From NCBI GenBank assembly GCA_027483245.1, contig JAIXVB010000570.1, positions 1 to 33,103 of the forward strand: a stretch of DNA of 33,103 bases. Direction: 5' to 3'. How positions within the stretch are numbered: the stretch's first letter is position 1; the number at the start of each line of letters is the position of its first letter. The translations under genes and the position numbers were made by a program. The DNA is from Verrucomicrobiaceae bacterium. GTDB lineage: Bacteria > Verrucomicrobiota > Verrucomicrobiia > Verrucomicrobiales > Verrucomicrobiaceae. Below, piece after piece: positions 21,079 to 33,103 of the stretch. A model generated the notes under the pieces. It did no database searches, was not told where the DNA came from, and saw only the letters and a list, made by a program, of their open reading frames with translations.

Positions 21079-21645
21079 TCATTTGAAATCCAGGTCCGGC
21101 GGGAAATTGCGGATCTGATCATCATCCGTGTAGGGCAACTTGTCGGGGCCATCATAAATGAGCTGAAAAGCACAACCGCTGCTGGAGATGACATGAAGTC
21201 GAATGCCGGGTGACTCTGGCGCAGAACGAAAGGCATCCCCTCTCAGCGCAGGATGCTCTTTGGGAACCAGGGCCAACTGCTTGCGATTGGCCCCGGCGAG
21301 TTGAGCCCGGACATCCTCCCAATTGCCGTTCGGCAGAGAGCGAACGGTCGTCCAATAATCGATCAGCATCTGGCCAATGATCGTCGTTTGCTGCTCTGGA
21401 GTCAGGTCAGGTTTCAGCAGATCATTGAGCGGCGAAGGCGGCAATCCAGCCGCTGGATCAGGCTGAGGCAGCCCAGCTTTCAAGGCAAGGTCCAGAGGAA
21501 CAAGCGCATCACTTTTCGGAGCCACCCAGCTTTTCAAATCCGCCCACAATCCCGAAAACCCTCCCCCCTGCCCCAGCATCAGTCCAAACAGAACCGCCAG
21601 CAGCAGCAGGAAAGCAAAAGCCAAGGGGCGAAGAAGACGTTTCAA
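21079..21645 (-). CDS. Small membrane-anchored protein of unknown function
   Basis: 188-aa ORF: one N-terminal TM (LLRPLAFAFLLLLAVLFGLMLG); C-terminal 'FQLIYDGPDKLPYTDDDQIRNFPPDLDF'. 41 nt downstream of the DUF1501 gene on the same strand. Confidence 0.7.
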   Translation of the reverse strand: MKRLLRPLAFAFLLLLAVLFGLMLGQGGGFSGLWADLKSWVAPKSDALVPLDLALKAGLPQPDPAAGLPPSPLNDLLKPDLTPEQQTTIIGQMLIDYWTTVRSLPNGNWEDVRAQLAGANRKQLALVPKEHPALRGDAFRSAPESPGIRLHVISSSGCAFQLIYDGPDKLPYTDDDQIRNFPPDLDFK

Positions 21646-21686: not shown

Positions 21687-23093
21687 TTAGGCCTTCATGA
21701 ATCCAAGATCCGCATCGAAATTCTGAATGTTCGGAAAGACCTCACGGATCTGCGTTGGACTAAGACCAAACCACTTGGCCATCGTCGCCGCGTATTGATC
21801 GACCGCCGTGGTGGGAATCCAGTTGCCGCGTCCGGTGTTGAGCGGATGCCCCGCGAGATTGATGTCAGGATCAGGATACGAGCCATAGATCCTTTGGCCG
21901 TTCACACCTCCGCCCATGACCAAATGATGGCCACCCCAACCGTGGTCGGACCCGCGACCATTGGAGTCGTAGGTGCGATTAAAATCCGAGGCGGTGAAAC
22001 TGGTGACGGAATCTCCCATGCCGATGGTTTCCAGTCCATCTTGAAAGCCCTTCAACGCGGCACTGACCCCGCCCAACAGACCCGCATGGGTATCGAGCTG
22101 CGGTCCATGCGTGTCGAAACCACCGGTGGCGACAAAGAAGATCTGGCGAGTGATGCCCAGCGGTCCTTGGGCTTGAATCATCTTGGCCACCGTGCGCAAT
22201 TGCTCACCGAGACCCGAGTTCGGAATCGTGGGGAAATTGGACGTGCCCTGCAGCGCGGTGTTGATGGTATCCGCTTCGATGATCGACTTGTTCGAGAGAT
22301 CCGCAAAAGCGTCTTCCATCAGGTTCGCATACTCCGCGTTGAGGATGTTGCGAAAGGCGGTGTAGCGCGTCACATCCTGACTGCTGCTGCCTTGTCCCAG
22401 ACGAAACACAGGCGTGCCTCCTGGTCCTGGACGGAAGGGCAGCAGCGTCTTGCCTACTTGGAAAAAATTGGTGCCGCTGAGAGAGACCAGCATGGACACC
22501 GAGGTGCGTGCTTGGGTGCCGACCAGGGCCTCCGCCATGCGTGCGCCCCAACCCGTCTGGTTGTAGGCCGAATTCATCGTGCTGGCCGAGGTTTGCCACT
22601 GCAGTTGCTGATCGCTGTGTGAAAAAAGATTGTCTGGGATCGCCGCAGTGCCATTGCGGTAATCCTGCATCGTCGCTGGCGCGATGAGCGTGCCAACATT
22701 CGAGAGCAACGCCAATTTCCCCTGATTGTAGAGATCTCGACAGCCCGTCATGGAGGGATGCAGGCCCAGTTGCAGGCCATTGTCGTTGAGCGTGTTCAGC
22801 GCCAGGATATTGGCCTGCGGAATCGTCAGCACGCTGCGGCTAGCGGCATACTTGGAATGCGCCGAGGACTCGCGCGGCATGAGCAGATTGTTTGAGTCAT
22901 TGCCACCGTAGAGAAAAACACAGACAATCGCCTTGTAGGGCGTGCCTGGCGCCAGCACATCAGCTGCCTGGGCGTTCACGTGACGCAGCGTGAGGATCGT
23001 GTTCAGCAGGCAGGTCGTGGACATCGCCGAGCACGCGCTGGAGCCGAGGAAGTTCCGCCGCGTGAGAAGCGTGGGCATGTCATTGGGAGTCAT
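21687..23093 (-). CDS. DUF1501 domain-containing protein with a Tat-like signal
   Basis: MTPNDMPTLLTRRNFLGSSACSAM; KAIVCVFLYGGNDSNNLLMPRES; 'ATGGFDTHGPQLDTHAGLLGGVSAALKGFQDGLETIGMGDSVTSFTASDFNRTYDSNGRGSDHGWGGHHLVMGGGVNGQRIYGSYPD' are DUF1501 hallmarks. The ORF-track start at 23117 would be a TTG; ATGs are at 23093 and 23078. Confidence 0.93.
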   Translation of the reverse strand: MTPNDMPTLLTRRNFLGSSACSAMSTTCLLNTILTLRHVNAQAADVLAPGTPYKAIVCVFLYGGNDSNNLLMPRESSAHSKYAASRSVLTIPQANILALNTLNDNGLQLGLHPSMTGCRDLYNQGKLALLSNVGTLIAPATMQDYRNGTAAIPDNLFSHSDQQLQWQTSASTMNSAYNQTGWGARMAEALVGTQARTSVSMLVSLSGTNFFQVGKTLLPFRPGPGGTPVFRLGQGSSSQDVTRYTAFRNILNAEYANLMEDAFADLSNKSIIEADTINTALQGTSNFPTIPNSGLGEQLRTVAKMIQAQGPLGITRQIFFVATGGFDTHGPQLDTHAGLLGGVSAALKGFQDGLETIGMGDSVTSFTASDFNRTYDSNGRGSDHGWGGHHLVMGGGVNGQRIYGSYPDPDINLAGHPLNTGRGNWIPTTAVDQYAATMAKWFGLSPTQIREVFPNIQNFDADLGFMKA

Positions 23094-23113
23094 GAGGAAA
23101 GAAAAGGCGGGGA

Positions 23114-26100
23114 TCAACGCTCCGTGGAGAACTCAGGGGAAGCCGTCAGCAGTTGCAGCATGACCTTCACTCCGTTGCTGGCATTGCTGGCATGCAGTGT
23201 GTGCAGACTGAGCAGGGACGCGCGCAGGTCTGCCGAGGCAGCGCGGCCTAACAAGAGGGTCTCTAATTTGGCAATCAAATCATTCGGGGTGCTCCACAGG
23301 GCGATCAAAGGAGCCAGGTCGAGACCGATGCGGCTGCCTTCATTGGTGTAGAAACCATGGGTCACGCCTTCAAAGAAATAGTTCGCCGTATCGGTGACCG
23401 TCAGCTCCGTGGTGATCTCATACTCAGGCGCAACAAAGCCGGCGTCCAAAATCGGCCCTGGAGGCTGGTAAGTGGGAACGAAGAAATTAAACACCGTCGG
23501 TGCCTGCATGGGCCACTGACCGAGTTCATCTCCCGCATTCCACAGGATGTAACGTCCTAAAGTCGGTGGATTGCTGCTCGGTGGCTTCGGAAAGGCGCGC
23601 AACAGACGCGTGAGGCGGATCATCGGCTCACTGAGTTTACCCGCACTGGCCGTGCTGCCGAGCGTGCGCGCTTCAGGGTCCAAAAGCAGCGCTTTCACCA
23701 CCGCGCTAAGATCACCCCGCACGCCTTTGCCATTGTCATCCCAGACTCGGCTCACACGAAAGACAAACGCAGGGCTGGGGTTGCTGGTGACCAAACGCTG
23801 TATGAGTTGTTTGGCAATGAACGGCCCGACATTCGGGTGCGCGGCCAAGAGATCCAAACAACGACGCACATCTTGCAGCGCCGTTTGGCCCGCAGGCACC
23901 GTGGCTCCACCGATGATGACTTTTTGTCCGCGATCATGCTGATCTTCAAAGGACATCAGCGGGTTGATTTCATCGGTCGCATTGCCACTCCAGGTGAAGG
24001 AGCGTGAGTTGTTGTAGGTCCAGCCCGTGAAAGCTCGAGAGAGCTCGCGAATCTGAGTCTGGTTGTAAGTCGGGATGGCATTGCCTGAGCCATCACGCTT
24101 GAAGGTGCCATCCTTGTTCAGATGCTCCAAACCAATGCTGAAGAGCTGCATGATCTCGCGCGGATAGTTTTCATCGGGCTGGGTCTTCGAGCTGCGCACG
24201 AGAGTCAGCCAAGTGGCCATCATGGGATTCAAGGTGACGTCTTCCAGCAGCTTGCGATATGTGGTGCCAGGCGTGATGCCACGCACCAGCAGATCGTAGT
24301 AGTTCGTGCAGCCTCGTGGGTAATTGCGCAGCGAGCCTGATTTGTCAGAAATCACCAGGATCTCGCTCAATGCGAGCGCAACTCTTTGACGCAACTGATC
24401 TGGGGCCGTCGCGGCCAAGGTCCACCAACTGTAAAGGCGATCTTCCGTGTTCAGAGGCGTGTTCGTCATCGGCATCACCGCTCCGGGCAAGCCCAAGGTG
24501 GTGGCCGTTCTTGAGAGCTCCAGTAGCTTTTCTTGAGCGCCTTCAAACAACGCCATGCGATCCAGATGCGTGAGGTGTGAGGACACCGGCAACGCGAGCT
24601 GTTCGTCGATCCACTTGGAGAAACCGATCTGCTTCACACGGGCAATGTCAGCCTCCGAAGGACCAAAACTGGCCTGCTTCAGAAAACGCGACGCCTCCGC
24701 GTCCGAGATCGTCGCAGGCGCAGTCCAGGGGGTGGTGGAATGGGTGCCACTGGCGTCTGCAGGATACGTCGGTGCCGTGCCTTCCGCGACCGCCACCGTG
24801 ACACGTCGAGTCGCCACCACGGACTGATTTCCGGCTGAATCGGTCACGACATAGCGCAGCACATAGGTGCCCGGTGTGGACGTGTCCACCGTGCCCTGCG
24901 TTGTCACCGAACCCGTGAGATCGCCATCTTCCAAATCCTGCGCGCTGAAGCCGGGATCGATGAAACTACCACCAACGCCGACCGTGACATCGCCTCCGCC
25001 TGTGAGGGTGATGGTGGGGGCCTGTCTGTCAGCCAGCTTGAAGGGTGAAAGAAACGCACCGTCGATGACTTCAAAATTGGTTAATCCAGGTCGCAGCCAA
25101 GCCAGCGCCAAGTGATCTCTCCAACCGGATTCTTTGTAGCGAATCTCGATGTAAACCGGCTTGCCCTTGGTCAGCATGATCGGACGCGAAAGCTGGTAGT
25201 CTGGGAACTTCCGCCACTCATAGTAGTCCGTGGCGGCTGGCACAAAACAGACGAGCTCCTTTTTCTCCGGCGTGAGATCCGAGCTGAGATAGACCTCGCT
25301 CCATTCATCGGAGGCGAGATTAAACCGGTGAATGCCTGTGGTCGGCACATGCAAATAACCGCGTAGCAGCATGCCGTAATTGTCGCCCGTGTTGGACACG
25401 ATCTCTGCCGAGCGAAGCTGGATGCGGTCATCCGGGCTGTTCGGGAACTTCGGGGACTTCACCAAATCTGTCACCCAACTGCCCGTGATGCCCGTGAAGG
25501 TTTCCGCGAGGATCGAACCAGTGCCTGGAGCCAGCGCCGGGGCTAGAACAAAAGTCGCCGTCGAACTGCGTGAGTGCGTGCCATCGGTGGCCGTGAGTTG
25601 GACCTGATAGGTGCCTGCCGAGGCAAATTCCACCTGTGTCGTCAGCGCTGTGGGTGCATCGAAGACCGTGTTGGCAACCGCGCCCGCCGGACCACTGATC
25701 ACAGACCAACGATAAGCCAGGGCTTGCGGTCCAGGCACATAATCCACCGCTGTGCCACGCAGAGTGAATCGAGCCCGCGGCCAGTAACTGCTCTGCCCAT
25801 CACCCGCACGCACACTGATCTCACCATCAAAGGCCGCCGCGTTGGTGCCATCAGGCGGGCTGAGCAAGACACCGGGCACAATCTGCGCTTCGGCATCGGT
25901 TTGTGAAGCGAGCCGATACGCCACGGCAAAGTAGTCATCGCTATTGCCCTCTTTGTGCAGCGCTTGCAGGTAATAACGTTTACCAGGAACCAAACGAATC
26001 GACGCGGACTTTTGCGAGGCATAACGGGTCCAGTTGTGATAACCCGTCGCCTGTGGTGTAAAGGCAATCTTCTGCGCGCCCGCCGCGGCTTCACCTGCAG

Positions 26101-29100
26101 GATTCAACCACAGCGCGCTTTCATCATCGCTAGCCACCAAGAATACATAATCGCCTTCGACGGGCACTTGGAGGTAACCCGTGAGCCGCTGCCCATAGTT
26201 GTCGGACCAGTTGCTCGGGGCTTCCAGATTTGGCAGGAGGTCACTGAAATTGGGCCGGCCGCTGTAGGCACTTGATTGGGTGAGGTTGGCCAATTGATAA
26301 CCCGAGACACCTGTCCACACTTCCCGAAGTAAACCGCCAGCCTTTGGCGCGAGTGGGTTTTGCACCGTGACGAGCAGGATATCGCTGCCCGTATTCGCTC
26401 CATCCGTGGCCGTGACTTTGATCTCATACACGCCCGGGCCTGTGAACTTCGCCATGGCAACCGGACCTGTTGCGCTGTCAAAACTCACCTTGGTGGACTT
26501 CGAGGACCATTGATAGGTCAAGGCTCGGGGTCCCTGCTTCAAATCATAAACCAGTGCTGCCAGTGCCAGCTGATTTTGTGGCCAGAGAATCGTGCGATCC
26601 GTGCCCAGGGCGACGGTGATTTCAGGATTGAATGCCGGAGCCACGCCTTCAGGTTTCAAAAATGCCCGTGAAAGCACTTCCCGCCCATTCGTGGCAGGAC
26701 CTTCGAGGGCGGCTGAGAAGTGATCATTGCCATTGCGTTCCTTGTGCAAGAACTGAATCGGATAAGCCACGTTCGCCACGAGATCCACCGTGCTGGATTT
26801 ATGATTTGGATGCCCATCCCAATCGCGGGGTGCGTGGCCTTCGTGATCGACATAAGCCAACCGCGTCGGCCCGGCCCCATCCTTCAAGTCCAATTGGAAA
26901 TCCGCCGAATCATCTGCGGCGATCCAAAAGGTGTAGCGTCCAGAAATCGGCACCGTGAGGGACCCCTTCAATCGCGTCGCATAATAATCTGCCCAGTTTT
27001 GCGGAGGCTCAACACCGGGCAGTTGATCCACCAGATGAGGGTAAGAGAGCGTGGAATCATAGGCCAAGAGGTCCTGCAAGGTTCCGCCTTCCACATCCAG
27101 CCAGACAGAGCGTGTCAGCGCGCCCGTGCCTGTCGCGATGGCTTTTTGAATCGTGAAGACGACGCTGTCACGATGCGTGTAAGTGCCCTCCGTCACGGCC
27201 AGTTCAAAGGTGTAAGTGCCGACGGCTGAGAAGATCACTTCACTGGTTAGGCTCGTGGGTTCCAACAGCGTGGCTTTCGGACCTGAAAGCTGTTTCCAAA
27301 GCGCCGTCGGTGTGTTGCTGGAGCTCAGGACCTTGATCGACGAACCTGCGAGTCGAGTGCGATCATGCGGCCACCAGTAGGTGCGATCGCGACCTGCGTT
27401 GGCATAAAAGGTCAAGGTTGGGTCAAAGGCGGAGGCTTTTTGTGCGGGCTCCAGGTAGCTGCCTTCAATGACCTGCGGACGACGATCTCCTTGCTTCGCC
27501 CACGCGACCGCAAAGTAATCGCTGCTCCACATTTCCTTGTGCAGCAGCTCGACAAAATAACGTCCGCCTGGCTTCAGCGATACAGGGGCAGATGTCTGGC
27601 TCGCTTCGTTCGTCCAGACTTCACGACCACTGGCAGTGGTGGTGAAGGCGACTTTTTGCAAATTGGCCGGGCTCGTGTCCGTGCTGATGGAAAACTCCGC
27701 GACATCATCTCCACTGACATAAAAAGTGTAATTCACCGGTGTCGTGCCAGAGCCAGGCACATTCAAGATGCCCGTGACTCGCGTGCCATAACGATCCGCC
27801 CAGTTGTTGTGCTGTTTCAGATCAGGAATCGTGTCCACGATGTCCGGCTGATGAGGAAAGGCCGGATCCGCACGCAGGGCATCCAGGTTGGCATAACTGC
27901 GATTCCACCAGATTTGACGAGTCAGGCTGCCCACGTTGGCATTGAGGGTAGGTTTTACTTCCACCGTCACTTCATCCGTGCTGGTGTTGTTCACCGTCGT
28001 CACGCTGTAGCGCAGCACATAAGTTCCGACTTTTGGAAAAGTGACCAGCGTTTGCGCCTTGTCTGCGGTCGAAAACAACACTCCAGGTGGGCCGCTGACC
28101 AGTGACCAAAGGCGTGTGGGAGTGTCGGCTCCCCAGATGCGGCGGGATTCATAGGCACTGAGGGAAAGGGAATTGCGCGGCCAATGGAGCAGGCCATCAC
28201 GACCTGCATTCAAAAGGTAATCATGCGTGAGATCAAACTCCTGCGTGCCCGCGATCACGGCTGCTGCGTTCGCCGGTGGGGCCAAATACTCACCGCTGAT
28301 CTCACTCAGGTATTCCTGCCCTGGTTGCTGCCACATGACCGTGAGATGGTCTGTGCCCCATTCCTCTTTGTGACGAATTTCAAATGCATACTTCTGCCCC
28401 GCAGTCAGCGAGATTGCCTCTGAGGCCTGCGTGACTTGATTGGCAAAGTCAGCCGGATTCACCGCTGTCGTGACCGAGGCGCGCAATTGCAGATTCTCAG
28501 GTGACGCATCCGTGCTCAGATGAAACTCCGCCTTTTCATTCGCTGCGATGAAGAAACGATAACTCCCTGTCGCAGGCACCAAGATAAAACCCCGGGTGCG
28601 AGTGCCAAAAAGATCCGCCAGACTCTGGGTGTTCGTGAGCGAGGTCACGAGGCGATGCGCATGCGGGAAGTTCGGGTAGTCGATGCTGCCCATGAGCGCC
28701 GCCACGGTGCTGCCATTCACGCCGAACCAATATTCTGACAACGCTTTGCCAGCATCCGCCGCAAGGGCTGGCAAGATCGTCACGGTGACGTCATCCGTCG
28801 CACTGTTCCCGGAGTGAGTGGCCGTGGCGCGAAAGACATAGGTGCCTTCACGAGTCACCGTCACAGGGGTGGAAGCCTGGGCAGGCGTGGTGATCGTCGC
28901 GGTCGGGCCGCTGACTTGACTCCAAAGAATCGACGGCGTCGTGTTCGCATTGGCGATATTCAGGGTCTGTGCCGTGAGCTGGATGCGATAGTTGGGGGCG
29001 TATTGCGTGACCGCTTTTCCAGCTTCGACCAAGAGACCCGTGGGGATGACTGCAGGCACTTCGAAAGGTGTCAGATTGGCCCCTGGAATCACCTGCGGTG

Positions 29101-29614
29101 TTGCATCAGGGGAGGTCGCCCAGCCAACAGCCAGACTATCACCGCCATTGCCCTCTTTCATCAGCGCCTCGATGTAATAACGCTGTCCGGCTTGCAGCGA
29201 GACCGGTGCGGATTTCTGTTCCGGGAACTTGGTCCAGCGCTGCGCCTCCGTCCAACCGGGCACATGAGCGATGCGCACCTTTTGGTTTGGCGAGTCATTC
29301 GTGCTCAGCCAGAGTTCGCAATGGTCATCACCACTGACCCAAAAAGTGTAACTGCCCGTGGTCGTGGGGGTCAAAAAGGCACGCATCCGTGTCCCATACA
29401 GTTCGGCCCAGTTGACCGGTGCCGCAAAGGTCGCCTCCACCGTTCTAAGAATCGGATTGCTGGGATAATCCGCCGACAAAGTCAGGTCCGCGATCTCCCC
29501 GCCTTCGAGCTGGGTCCACACCTCTCGCAGCACCCCTGAGGTCTGCGCTTGCATCGCCGGTGTCGCCGCCAAGAAAACAGCCAGGGAACTGGAAAAGAGG
29601 AAACGCATTACCAT
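23114..29614 (-). CDS. Giant secreted DUF1800 domain protein with six PA14-like and five PKD/Ig-like modules
   Basis: 2166-aa ORF. Signal MVMRFLFSSSLAVFLAATPAMQA. Repeated PA14-like modules, e.g. 'GTRMRAFLTPTTTGSYTFWVSGDDHCELWLSTN...RYYIEALMKEGNGGDSLAVGW'. C-terminus 'ASRFLKQASFGPSEADIARVKQIGFSKWIDEQL...NYPREIMQLFSIGLEHLNKDG...RELSRAFTGWTY' is DUF1800. Start may be 29614 or 29608. Confidence 0.93.
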   Translation of the reverse strand: MVMRFLFSSSLAVFLAATPAMQAQTSGVLREVWTQLEGGEIADLTLSADYPSNPILRTVEATFAAPVNWAELYGTRMRAFLTPTTTGSYTFWVSGDDHCELWLSTNDSPNQKVRIAHVPGWTEAQRWTKFPEQKSAPVSLQAGQRYYIEALMKEGNGGDSLAVGWATSPDATPQVIPGANLTPFEVPAVIPTGLLVEAGKAVTQYAPNYRIQLTAQTLNIANANTTPSILWSQVSGPTATITTPAQASTPVTVTREGTYVFRATATHSGNSATDDVTVTILPALAADAGKALSEYWFGVNGSTVAALMGSIDYPNFPHAHRLVTSLTNTQSLADLFGTRTRGFILVPATGSYRFFIAANEKAEFHLSTDASPENLQLRASVTTAVNPADFANQVTQASEAISLTAGQKYAFEIRHKEEWGTDHLTVMWQQPGQEYLSEISGEYLAPPANAAAVIAGTQEFDLTHDYLLNAGRDGLLHWPRNSLSLSAYESRRIWGADTPTRLWSLVSGPPGVLFSTADKAQTLVTFPKVGTYVLRYSVTTVNNTSTDEVTVEVKPTLNANVGSLTRQIWWNRSYANLDALRADPAFPHQPDIVDTIPDLKQHNNWADRYGTRVTGILNVPGSGTTPVNYTFYVSGDDVAEFSISTDTSPANLQKVAFTTTASGREVWTNEASQTSAPVSLKPGGRYFVELLHKEMWSSDYFAVAWAKQGDRRPQVIEGSYLEPAQKASAFDPTLTFYANAGRDRTYWWPHDRTRLAGSSIKVLSSSNTPTALWKQLSGPKATLLEPTSLTSEVIFSAVGTYTFELAVTEGTYTHRDSVVFTIQKAIATGTGALTRSVWLDVEGGTLQDLLAYDSTLSYPHLVDQLPGVEPPQNWADYYATRLKGSLTVPISGRYTFWIAADDSADFQLDLKDGAGPTRLAYVDHEGHAPRDWDGHPNHKSSTVDLVANVAYPIQFLHKERNGNDHFSAALEGPATNGREVLSRAFLKPEGVAPAFNPEITVALGTDRTILWPQNQLALAALVYDLKQGPRALTYQWSSKSTKVSFDSATGPVAMAKFTGPGVYEIKVTATDGANTGSDILLVTVQNPLAPKAGGLLREVWTGVSGYQLANLTQSSAYSGRPNFSDLLPNLEAPSNWSDNYGQRLTGYLQVPVEGDYVFLVASDDESALWLNPAGEAAAGAQKIAFTPQATGYHNWTRYASQKSASIRLVPGKRYYLQALHKEGNSDDYFAVAYRLASQTDAEAQIVPGVLLSPPDGTNAAAFDGEISVRAGDGQSSYWPRARFTLRGTAVDYVPGPQALAYRWSVISGPAGAVANTVFDAPTALTTQVEFASAGTYQVQLTATDGTHSRSSTATFVLAPALAPGTGSILAETFTGITGSWVTDLVKSPKFPNSPDDRIQLRSAEIVSNTGDNYGMLLRGYLHVPTTGIHRFNLASDEWSEVYLSSDLTPEKKELVCFVPAATDYYEWRKFPDYQLSRPIMLTKGKPVYIEIRYKESGWRDHLALAWLRPGLTNFEVIDGAFLSPFKLADRQAPTITLTGGGDVTVGVGGSFIDPGFSAQDLEDGDLTGSVTTQGTVDTSTPGTYVLRYVVTDSAGNQSVVATRRVTVAVAEGTAPTYPADASGTHSTTPWTAPATISDAEASRFLKQASFGPSEADIARVKQIGFSKWIDEQLALPVSSHLTHLDRMALFEGAQEKLLELSRTATTLGLPGAVMPMTNTPLNTEDRLYSWWTLAATAPDQLRQRVALALSEILVISDKSGSLRNYPRGCTNYYDLLVRGITPGTTYRKLLEDVTLNPMMATWLTLVRSSKTQPDENYPREIMQLFSIGLEHLNKDGTFKRDGSGNAIPTYNQTQIRELSRAFTGWTYNNSRSFTWSGNATDEINPLMSFEDQHDRGQKVIIGGATVPAGQTALQDVRRCLDLLAAHPNVGPFIAKQLIQRLVTSNPSPAFVFRVSRVWDDNGKGVRGDLSAVVKALLLDPEARTLGSTASAGKLSEPMIRLTRLLRAFPKPPSSNPPTLGRYILWNAGDELGQWPMQAPTVFNFFVPTYQPPGPILDAGFVAPEYEITTELTVTDTANYFFEGVTHGFYTNEGSRIGLDLAPLIALWSTPNDLIAKLETLLLGRAASADLRASLLSLHTLHASNASNGVKVMLQLLTASPEFSTER
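25037..29533 (-). repeat. Protein-level tandem repeat: six PA14-like modules alternating with five PKD/Ig-like modules
   Basis: PA14-like modules start at about aa 28, 290, 563, 831, 1093 and 1367 (spacing 262-274 aa). Each has REVWxxxxGxxxxDL...NWADxYGTRxxGxLxVPxxGxYTFWVxxDDxxExxLS...KxGxRYYxExLHKExxxxDxFAVAW...VIPGxxLxP. The intervening 'AGRD...WPxxxLxL...W...SGP...F...GTYxxxxxxTDG' modules are PKD-like. Confidence 0.85.
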
Positions 29615-30722: not shown

Positions 30723-33103
30723 TCACGCTGGTCCGTGAACGATCATGCCACGGAAGGCGCTGCTGCTCATCATCGGCTGCAAGAGGCTCATGGCCGCACG
30801 CAGCTTAGCTGGATTGGAAACCGACGGATTATTGACAATGAGGACATCGGTGGCCAGAGGCGCGAGCGGGGCGACATCGGCAAAGTTCCGCAAGATCGGT
30901 CCGCCATCCAGGATGATCCAGTCCACCTGCTGACGTGCGCGGTCGATCCAGGAGCGATAGCCATCCAGCAACTCGTTGGTCGCATAGGCAGGCAAATCAT
31001 GCGCTGGCAGCAGGAAAAGATTGGTTTTGCCATAACGCAGCGACTCCAGGTCATGCGCCCAGGAGCTGTGATTCGACGCGTGGGGGAACCATTGATGCAA
31101 GGTGGGAGACACGGCATTGCACTCCATCATGAAAACACTGCGGCCTTGATGACAGAAAGCGGCGGCCAAGGCAGCTGCGGAGAGGGTCTTGCCTTCCCCC
31201 GCTTCAGCACTGGTCAGCAGAATGATGCCCCCAAGACCGCTGCGGCGCAGAGCCTGGAGTTCCAGGGTGGTGGTAAGCTGCGAGAGTGCCCCCGCGGCCC
31301 CCTGCGGCTCCGGTTTTAAAAGCTGACCAAGCATGGTCTCGGGGTGTCCTTGACCGATGAGAGGCAGCCGAGCGAGCACCGGCGCTTGATTCGGTGTTTG
31401 CAGAGACAGAGGCGAGGGCGCTTGCTGCTGCGGAGCACTCATCACAGGTGGCTGGGGTCGTGCGCTGGGCATGGGCGCAGGAGCAGGAGAGGCCATTGTC
31501 TGTCCCGCCTGCATCGTCGCCATGTGAGGCACTTCTTTGACCGACGGGATATTCGCGGAAGGGGAACCGCCCTGGCGCAGCATCTTCAGCACATGATCGT
31601 CGAACAATCCCCAAGTCACCGGCAGGCCAATGAGGATGAAGCCAAACAGGATCATGCTGGCCACCGCAGCGATGGGTTTGTTCGGTTTCACAGGCTTGTC
31701 AGGTGCTGTCGCGATGTCGGATAAACTCAGGGCTCCGCTGTCTTTGAACTGGCCCGTGACCTCAGCCTGATTCAGCCGCTTCACGATGGTCTGATACATT
31801 TCACGATCTGCGGCCACCTGATCACTCAGGAGTTTTTGCTGCACATTCTTGCCGCTCATGTCCAGGACCTGACCGCGCGCGGACTGGCTTTGATTTTGAA
31901 AGTCGGTGATCTGGCGTTCCAGATTGGCCACTTCCGCCTCGGCCATTCTGACCACGCCGCCTGAAGCTTGATCGAGCGCAGCTCTGGCCGACTCAATCTT
32001 ACCTGCGAGAGCGATCATCTGCGGATGGCGACGACCACACAACGGCTCGAGCTGTTTGCGCTCGGTGATGGCGGATTCGAGTTCTTTGCGGTTGAAAGCG
32101 ACATCGGGATTGTCCGCGATGAGGCGCACCTCTAGGAGATCGCGCCCTGCTTGTTGAGTGGTGCGGATGCTCTGCAAATCGCTTTTGGCTTTCGCGAGTC
32201 GGATCTCGGCATCGGTGATGGCCGTGGTGAGCTGGCGGACACGATCACTGTCCACATCCTTGGTCTCATCACTCTGCATGAGGTTCTCTGACTTGCGATA
32301 CTCCGCCAGCTTGCGCTCACTGTCCTCCAGACGCTGTTTCAGCTCGTCCGCTTTCGACTGCAAAAAGTCGCGCTCACCTTGAGTTTGGCCGCTTTCTTGT
32401 TCGCCATAAAAACGGATGTAACCCTGGGCAAAGCTATTGGCGATGTCAGCCGCCATGCGCGGATCGCGATTGCGCACCAGCACACGCAAGATGTGACTTT
32501 CCTTTTGGGGTTCGACACGCACCGCGCTGTTGATGCTCTCGGCAAAAATCTCTTTTGGAAGGCCCGGTTTCCCAGGTTTGTAGAGTCCGAGCAGCTTGAG
32601 GAGCTCGTCTTTACGCCCAAGAGCGCTGCCCTCAGCCTTCACAAACGTGTCTCGTTTGGTGGGATCAAATTGCTCGTGAAAATAATCGATGAACCGACGC
32701 GACTTCAGCTCGGTAAGGTGATTGTTGATCAACTGCGGGGCACTCAGTTCCGTGACTCCCTGGCGACCCATTTCATTGAAGTTAAAGACGTTGGTGTCTT
32801 GCAGACGCAGGCGCAACTTGGCCTCTGCTTCATACACATTGGCTCCCATGCCCAGCACATAAAAGACAGCCGCTGCCGTGGGAAGCCCCACCAGAAAACC
32901 CAACCACCAACGCTTCTTCAGGTAACCCAGCAGATCCACGAGGCTGATGATCGCCTCACTGAACTGCGGGGCTGGCGTGGAAAGATACGGATTGGTATCA
33001 ACCTGCGGCAGAGGCAGCGGTGCTCCGAGTGCGGACGGTGCCAGCGGCACGAGTCCCCGCGACCCAGCACCCGCACCGGGCTGAGTGTGGACGGTATCAA
33101 GAG
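30723..33103 (-). CDS. Wzz-domain polysaccharide chain-length/export protein fused to a BY-kinase-like (CpsD/Etk-like) ATPase domain; 5' end probably beyond the window
   Basis: Wzz-like N-terminus (SLVDLLGYLKKRWWLGFLVGLPTAAAVFYVL), coiled-coil, PDKPVKPNKPIAAVASMILFGFILIGLPVTWGLFDD; C-terminal GGIILLTSAEAGEGKTLSAAALAAAF and DWIILDGGPI. The ORF track starts at a GTG (33050), but the frame stays open to the window edge. Confidence 0.88.
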   Translation of the reverse strand, partial: LDTVHTQPGAGAGSRGLVPLAPSALGAPLPLPQVDTNPYLSTPAPQFSEAIISLVDLLGYLKKRWWLGFLVGLPTAAAVFYVLGMGANVYEAEAKLRLRLQDTNVFNFNEMGRQGVTELSAPQLINNHLTELKSRRFIDYFHEQFDPTKRDTFVKAEGSALGRKDELLKLLGLYKPGKPGLPKEIFAESINSAVRVEPQKESHILRVLVRNRDPRMAADIANSFAQGYIRFYGEQESGQTQGERDFLQSKADELKQRLEDSERKLAEYRKSENLMQSDETKDVDSDRVRQLTTAITDAEIRLAKAKSDLQSIRTTQQAGRDLLEVRLIADNPDVAFNRKELESAITERKQLEPLCGRRHPQMIALAGKIESARAALDQASGGVVRMAEAEVANLERQITDFQNQSQSARGQVLDMSGKNVQQKLLSDQVAADREMYQTIVKRLNQAEVTGQFKDSGALSLSDIATAPDKPVKPNKPIAAVASMILFGFILIGLPVTWGLFDDHVLKMLRQGGSPSANIPSVKEVPHMATMQAGQTMASPAPAPMPSARPQPPVMSAPQQQAPSPLSLQTPNQAPVLARLPLIGQGHPETMLGQLLKPEPQGAAGALSQLTTTLELQALRRSGLGGIILLTSAEAGEGKTLSAAALAAAFCHQGRSVFMMECNAVSPTLHQWFPHASNHSSWAHDLESLRYGKTNLFLLPAHDLPAYATNELLDGYRSWIDRARQQVDWIILDGGPILRNFADVAPLAPLATDVLIVNNPSVSNPAKLRAAMSLLQPMMSSSAFRGMIVHGPA

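Follow-up and report, generated by a model that had tools for sequence, protein, structure and literature searches.

The window analysed here, the whole 33,103-nucleotide stretch of contig JAIXVB010000570.1 from a freshwater-type Verrucomicrobium (Verrucomicrobiaceae), encodes a giant exported protein in which lectin-type modules lie N-terminal to a helical DUF1800 domain. Its gene opens a conserved operon, in which it is followed by a gene for a DUF1501 protein with a twin-arginine translocation (Tat)-type signal and then by a small gene, orf188. We propose, at a rough probability of 0.45, that the operon specifies a lectin-armed extracytoplasmic two-protein module, in which DUF1501 would be a hydrolase, DUF1800 its partner and the PA14/PKD array the glycan-targeting part. 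The initial annotation, made from the letters of the sequence, had read the giant protein as a long surface rod with multivalent glycan binding that displays DUF1800 at its end. That functional reading was borne out in part, but it missed the exchangeable front ends of related proteins and the points most relevant to function: the DUF1501 partner, the third operon gene, a link between DUF1800 and PSD1, and versions of the pair in phages.

The DUF1800-DUF1501 pair and its operon

The three genes of the operon are as follows.

23114..29614, minus strand: exported protein, signal peptide followed by (PA14-PKD)5-PA14, an immunoglobulin (Ig)-like module and DUF1800 (open reading frame, Pfam, orthologues L012-L018 and L155)
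21687..23117, minus strand: DUF1501 partner with Tat motif TRRNFL and motifs GFDTH, SDFNRT and GSDHGWGGHH (Pfam E 6.1e-30, alignment)
21079..21645, minus strand: orf188, third operon gene, encoding a small protein with a single membrane helix at its N-terminus (hydrophobicity, synteny)

The DUF1501 gene adjoins that of DUF1800 on the same strand and probably starts at the ATG about 25 nucleotides (nt) past the DUF1800 stop; orf188 begins 41 nt past the DUF1501 stop and matched no Pfam family. A search of a genome collection returned seven loci with orthologues of the giant protein (L012-L018, 60–74% best-segment identity), all from metagenome-assembled genomes of Verrucomicrobiaceae, plus L155 as the eighth, which comes from a different family within the order. 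In L012, L013, L014, L015, L017, L018 and L155 orf188 again lies downstream of DUF1501 (51–73% identity). The three-gene operon is thus kept in relatives, but the surrounding window genes do not follow, and functional ties to other genes of the window, among them those for the AEC transporter, Wzz/GNVR and FtsK, were rejected because none is conserved beside the operon.

Under a strict adjacency rule, which misses some overlapping open reading frames, DUF1501 lies immediately downstream of 58 of 70 bacterial DUF1800 genes and of 11 of 13 on viral contigs, and 54 of the 58 bacterial pairs carry a Tat motif on DUF1501. The two families show correlated evolution, the tree distances of DUF1800 and DUF1501 giving r 0.90 over 72 pairs (permutation maximum 0.18), a value to which shared species history contributes. 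Across the order it is the pair that stays constant, and the front end with its lectin-like modules is exchangeable, other long DUF1800 proteins bearing H-lectin, CHRD, TSP3, PA14, GEVED or Calx-beta modules; many DUF1800 proteins of about 500 amino acids (aa) have no adhesive part and still retain DUF1501. This genome holds up to 49 DUF1501 stretches against about 9 DUF1800 and 34 PSD1 genes or fragments, and none of the DUF1501 lies near both DUF1800 and PSD1, counts that are limited by contig breaks. The pair is also known to travel with a bacterial chitin synthase and a sugar epimerase, in an operon of enterobacteria (Dickeya/Pectobacterium) and Agrobacterium vitis (PMC5122149), and PSCyt/PSD proteins, which are other partners of DUF1501, bear carbohydrate-binding modules including PA14 (PMC5615132).

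The GFDTH, S[DE]FxR and DH motifs are largely invariant among DUF1800-linked, PSD1-linked and phage DUF1501, and D335, H337, R381, D391 and H392 are invariant in 19 aligned sequences. These metal-ligand-like residues persist despite 17–19% identity and would correspond to the conserved Asp/His motifs of the alkaline phosphatase superfamily. When the DUF1501 profile was searched against the PDB, the only chains touched were sulfatases, weakly (E 0.05–0.8); membership of the S1 sulfatases was rejected since their signature is missing. Taken together, the motifs and the sulfatase-only contacts suggest that DUF1501 is probably a metal-dependent hydrolase resembling the alkaline phosphatase superfamily.

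Several further features of these loci were recorded. A Wzz/GNVR-type chain-length gene (30723-33050, minus strand) lies 1.1 kb upstream of the operon and is unlinked to it in relatives. In L012 and L013 a PSCyt2-PSD1 plus DUF1501 operon stands head to head with the three-gene operon, and L018 has two DUF1800-DUF1501 pairs in tandem. The C-terminus of orf188 (DGPDKxPFTDDDxIRN) is, by eye only, faintly like the Ca2+-loop tail of major pseudopilins. Proteins of 2400–3200 aa such as L154, L163 and L158 have DUF1800 near the N-terminus, where a long insertion interrupts it; the more than 1500 aa that come after it are mostly without assigned domains.

Architecture and export of the giant protein

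The open reading frame starts with ATG and encodes 2166 aa. Domains of the window proteins were assigned by Pfam profile search, which placed PA14 on six stretches (E 1e-43), K319L-like_PKD on five (E 6e-36), Bact_surface_Ig-like (PF16403) at aa 1535-1607 (E 7.5e-20) and DUF1800 (PF08811) at aa 1643-2163 (E 7.7e-79; 266.2 bits against a cut-off of 26.1; profile positions 1-418 of 419); a match to PKD (PF00801) fell slightly under its cut-off. The counts and order of modules proposed earlier agree with this result, PA14, PKD and DUF1800 all being assigned by profile, and the match in architecture is far beyond chance. The module previously called DUF5011/HYR-like is indeed Ig-like but is assigned to PF16403 instead; its solved relatives, 2kpn and 5fq3, are a bacillolysin and the lipoprotein BT_2262. 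The parts of the protein are listed from its N-terminus.

29543..29614, minus strand: region of the Sec-type signal peptide, about aa 1-24 (MVMRFLFSSSLAVFLAATPAMQAQ), with the highest hydrophobicity of any 19-mer in the protein (sequence)
29054..29533, minus strand: PA14 module 1, GDD motif in 5/5 orthologues compared (Pfam, alignment)
28748..29053, minus strand: PKD module 1 (Pfam)
28271..28747, minus strand: PA14 module 2, ANE here, DE or DA elsewhere; DD not conserved (Pfam, alignment)
27929..28270, minus strand: PKD module 2 (Pfam)
27443..27928, minus strand: PA14 module 3, DD everywhere except L018 (Pfam, alignment)
27125..27442, minus strand: PKD module 3 (Pfam)
26645..27124, minus strand: PA14 module 4, DD here, DH/DE in most orthologues (Pfam, alignment)
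26339..26644, minus strand: PKD module 4 (Pfam)
25853..26338, minus strand: PA14 module 5, SDD motif in 5/5 orthologues compared (Pfam, alignment)
25517..25852, minus strand: PKD module 5 (Pfam)
25037..25516, minus strand: PA14 module 6, DE here, DD or DE in orthologues (Pfam, alignment)
24791..25036, minus strand: bacterial surface Ig-like module, PF16403 (Pfam; solved relatives as above)
23117..24697, minus strand: DUF1800 domain, all helical, motif E1815-N1816-x-x-R1819-E1820 (Pfam, AlphaFold2, conservation)

PA14 copies 2–6 are 30–40% identical to copy 1. Some of the seven orthologous loci are cut or frame-broken. Modules were compared in five full-length orthologues, which keep every module in register (PA14 57–76%, PKD 43–75% and DUF1800 56–82% identity). 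Six PA14 copies are retained in all five and in L155. Since the modules are orthologous position by position, the array is a fixed architecture and a recent repeat expansion was ruled out. All six PA14 modules match the profile, but only modules 1 and 5 have an invariant Asp-Asp pair, which in PA14 lectins forms the Ca2+/sugar site; the pair varies in 3, 4 and 6 and is not conserved in 2, so that multivalent glycan binding was an overstatement.

The N-terminus of Sec type is the strongest hydrophobic stretch of the protein, and a hydrophobicity scan found no strongly hydrophobic segment beyond it, which supports predicted Sec-type export. PA14 on PKD does resemble adhesive stalk proteins. However, the protein terminates within DUF1800 with neither a sorting tail nor a transmembrane segment, which leaves the surface rod envisaged earlier conjectural.

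Homology to PSD1 and occurrence in phages

Profile alignment showed the C-terminal half of DUF1800 to be homologous to PSD1/DUF1553. One PSD1 gene of this genome scored above the cut-off of the Pfam DUF1800 profile (E 6.5e-6), and our own profiles, run against 1218 open reading frames, gave sub-threshold matches of DUF1800 and PSD1 only to each other. In hhalign the two families matched weakly with shallow alignments (34%) and reached significance only with deeper ones (92.6%, E 4.5e-7, score 64.1), the controls staying far lower, at 19.3 for the reversed alignment, no more than 27.6 over 30 column shuffles and 12.7 with a DUF1501 decoy. When the proteins were halved, C-terminal against C-terminal half gave 93.4% (E 2.5e-7) and no other combination was significant, which places the homology in the C-terminal half; between the N-terminal halves of DUF1800 and PSCyt2 none was detected by hhalign (E 0.036). 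An AlphaFold2 model of a PSCyt2-PSD1 protein was too poor for fold comparison (predicted local distance difference test, pLDDT, 50.8).

The AlphaFold2 model of the DUF1800 domain itself was nearly all helical (pLDDT 82.5, predicted template-modelling score 0.85), and a sequence search found no solved structural relative. Foldseek against BFVD returned one phage DUF1800 (E 7e-24, template-modelling score 0.75) and no other match, a result that doubles as positive control. The E-N-x-x-R-E motif is 97–100% conserved across 89 sequences, which suggests a functional site. In the PSD1 proteins L080, L082 and L085 the last 50 residues gave weak matches to PSD5/DUF1595, PSD2/DUF1585 and DUF4214, hinting that these families may share a C-terminal helical motif with DUF1800.

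A scan of viral contigs revealed DUF1800 genes with adjoining DUF1501. Their neighbours include terminase (phrog_38, E 1.5e-95), portal (phrog_156, E 1.3e-145), major head (phrog_334, E 1.1e-77) and baseplate wedge (phrog_438, E 3.3e-165) genes as well as tail-fibre families; L177, L178, L179 and L180 are phage contigs of this kind, with the pair among terminase, portal, head, baseplate and tail genes and no Tat motif. In tailed phages DUF1501 has the Tat motif in 0 of 11 cases, against 54 of 58 in the bacterial pairs, and gene order suggests a virion location. The DUF1800 tree groups most of the phage members into a single clade (0.99), which is nested among long bacterial proteins, and places three others elsewhere, so that at least two transfers are likely. 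The pair is rare in phages, occurring on about 16 IMG/VR contigs (two scans) and in one unannotated named phage record; the ‘DUF1501’ gene of ZC03 (PMC5418858), a weak 61-aa match, was left out of this count. A search of one literature library found no paper containing both ‘DUF1800’ and ‘phage’. The N-terminus of one DUF1800 from the L177-L180 set weakly matches a baseplate wedge/tail-fibre connector (phrog_677), and one viral contig of 322,512 bases, a jumbo-phage size, bears two separate DUF1800 relatives (L191 and L194).

Interpretation and comparison with known systems

In the proposed module, DUF1501 would be exported folded via Tat and form the probable catalytic half, a metal-dependent hydrolase whose target is a polysaccharide ester group. 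Its dedicated all-helical partner would be DUF1800, presumably in physical contact with it, and the Sec-exported PA14/PKD rod, with DUF1800 at its C-terminus, would select the glycan; orf188 plausibly tethers or assembles the pair. In other copies within the order the PA14 array is exchanged for H-lectin, CHRD or TSP3, and phages appear to fix the pair onto virion parts rather than export it. More broadly and more tentatively, DUF1800 and PSD1 may be two branches of one helical family of DUF1501 partners, the pair being a portable glycan-processing device, exported by Sec/Tat behind interchangeable lectin fronts and captured at least twice by tailed phages as a virion component acting on the host surface.

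Four observations weigh against the proposed module. Foldseek found no match to the DUF1800 model in the PDB (best E 1.1), so that a role cannot be read from the structure; the window DUF1501 does not contain the S1-sulfatase signature [CS]xPxR, which leaves the nucleophile unassigned; four of the six PA14 modules lack a DD site kept in all orthologues; and sequence, hydrophobicity and Pfam searches found no surface anchor, whether sorting tail, C-terminal membrane segment or anchor family match, although an anchor of a novel type could be present. The second of these would also suit a purely fibrillar adhesin, in which the PA14/PKD rod attaches and DUF1800-DUF1501, with no enzyme among them, help its export, folding or anchoring. 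In fibrillar-adhesin-like proteins PA14 serves as a promiscuous adhesive domain (PMC8286594), and the C-terminal location of DUF1800 would fit a role in anchoring or secretion. We nevertheless regard this explanation as unlikely, given the many short DUF1800 proteins that keep DUF1501 with no adhesive part, the phage pairs, which have no export problem, and the invariance of the metal-ligand-like residues at such low identity.

It is also conceivable, if quite unlikely, that the pair edits the cell's own nascent secreted polysaccharide during synthesis or export and not a foreign glycan, as the chitin synthase and epimerase genes that share its operon in enterobacteria and Agrobacterium (PMC5122149) and the upstream Wzz/GNVR-type gene of the window might indicate; but neither the Wzz-type nor the AEC gene keeps its place beside the operon in relatives, and the presence of many divergent pairs in one genome, each behind its own kind of lectin front, better suits substrate diversity. 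A heme-linked electron-transfer or redox module of bacteria of the Planctomycetes-Verrucomicrobia-Chlamydiae group, as the cytochrome domains in PSCyt/PSD proteins might suggest, appears very improbable: the C-terminal half of DUF1800 is common to PSD1, whose proteins can bear a PSCyt1 cytochrome domain, but no cytochrome domain was found in the window protein or in nine other DUF1800 proteins scanned.

DUF1800, DUF1501 and PSD1 are all widespread families of unknown function, and the PSD1 homology and the pairs in phage virion gene clusters together yield one testable hypothesis, surface-glycan processing. Both that homology and the phage versions without export signals are general results that go beyond the known DUF1800-DUF1501 pair, and the window operon, with its obvious lectin modules and conserved third gene, lends itself well to a test.

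Among known systems, S1-type sulfatases and the alkaline phosphatase superfamily share with DUF1501 the metal-ligand-like D/H motifs and a weak sulfatase profile match, but DUF1501 is without the CxPxR/SxPxR formylglycine signature. Fibrillar-adhesin-like proteins (PMC8286594) likewise have PA14 alternating with Ig/PKD-type stalks behind a Sec-type signal; the window protein has such adhesive and stalk domains but, in contrast, ends in DUF1800, has a constant DUF1501 partner and shows no cell-surface anchor. The pair that accompanies chitin synthase (PMC5122149) consists of the same two adjacent families with a Tat motif on DUF1501, whereas here a 1600-aa PA14/PKD/Ig front end and orf188 are added and none of the window proteins scanned was a chitin synthase. 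The PSCyt2(DUF1549)-PSD1(DUF1553) plus DUF1501 systems of Planctomycetes and Verrucomicrobia differ in a PSCyt2 N-terminal half with no detectable similarity to that of DUF1800 and, in some cases, in a cytochrome c domain, but they share with the window operon a DUF1501 neighbour, a homologous C-terminal half and, in family members, reported carbohydrate-binding modules (PMC5615132).

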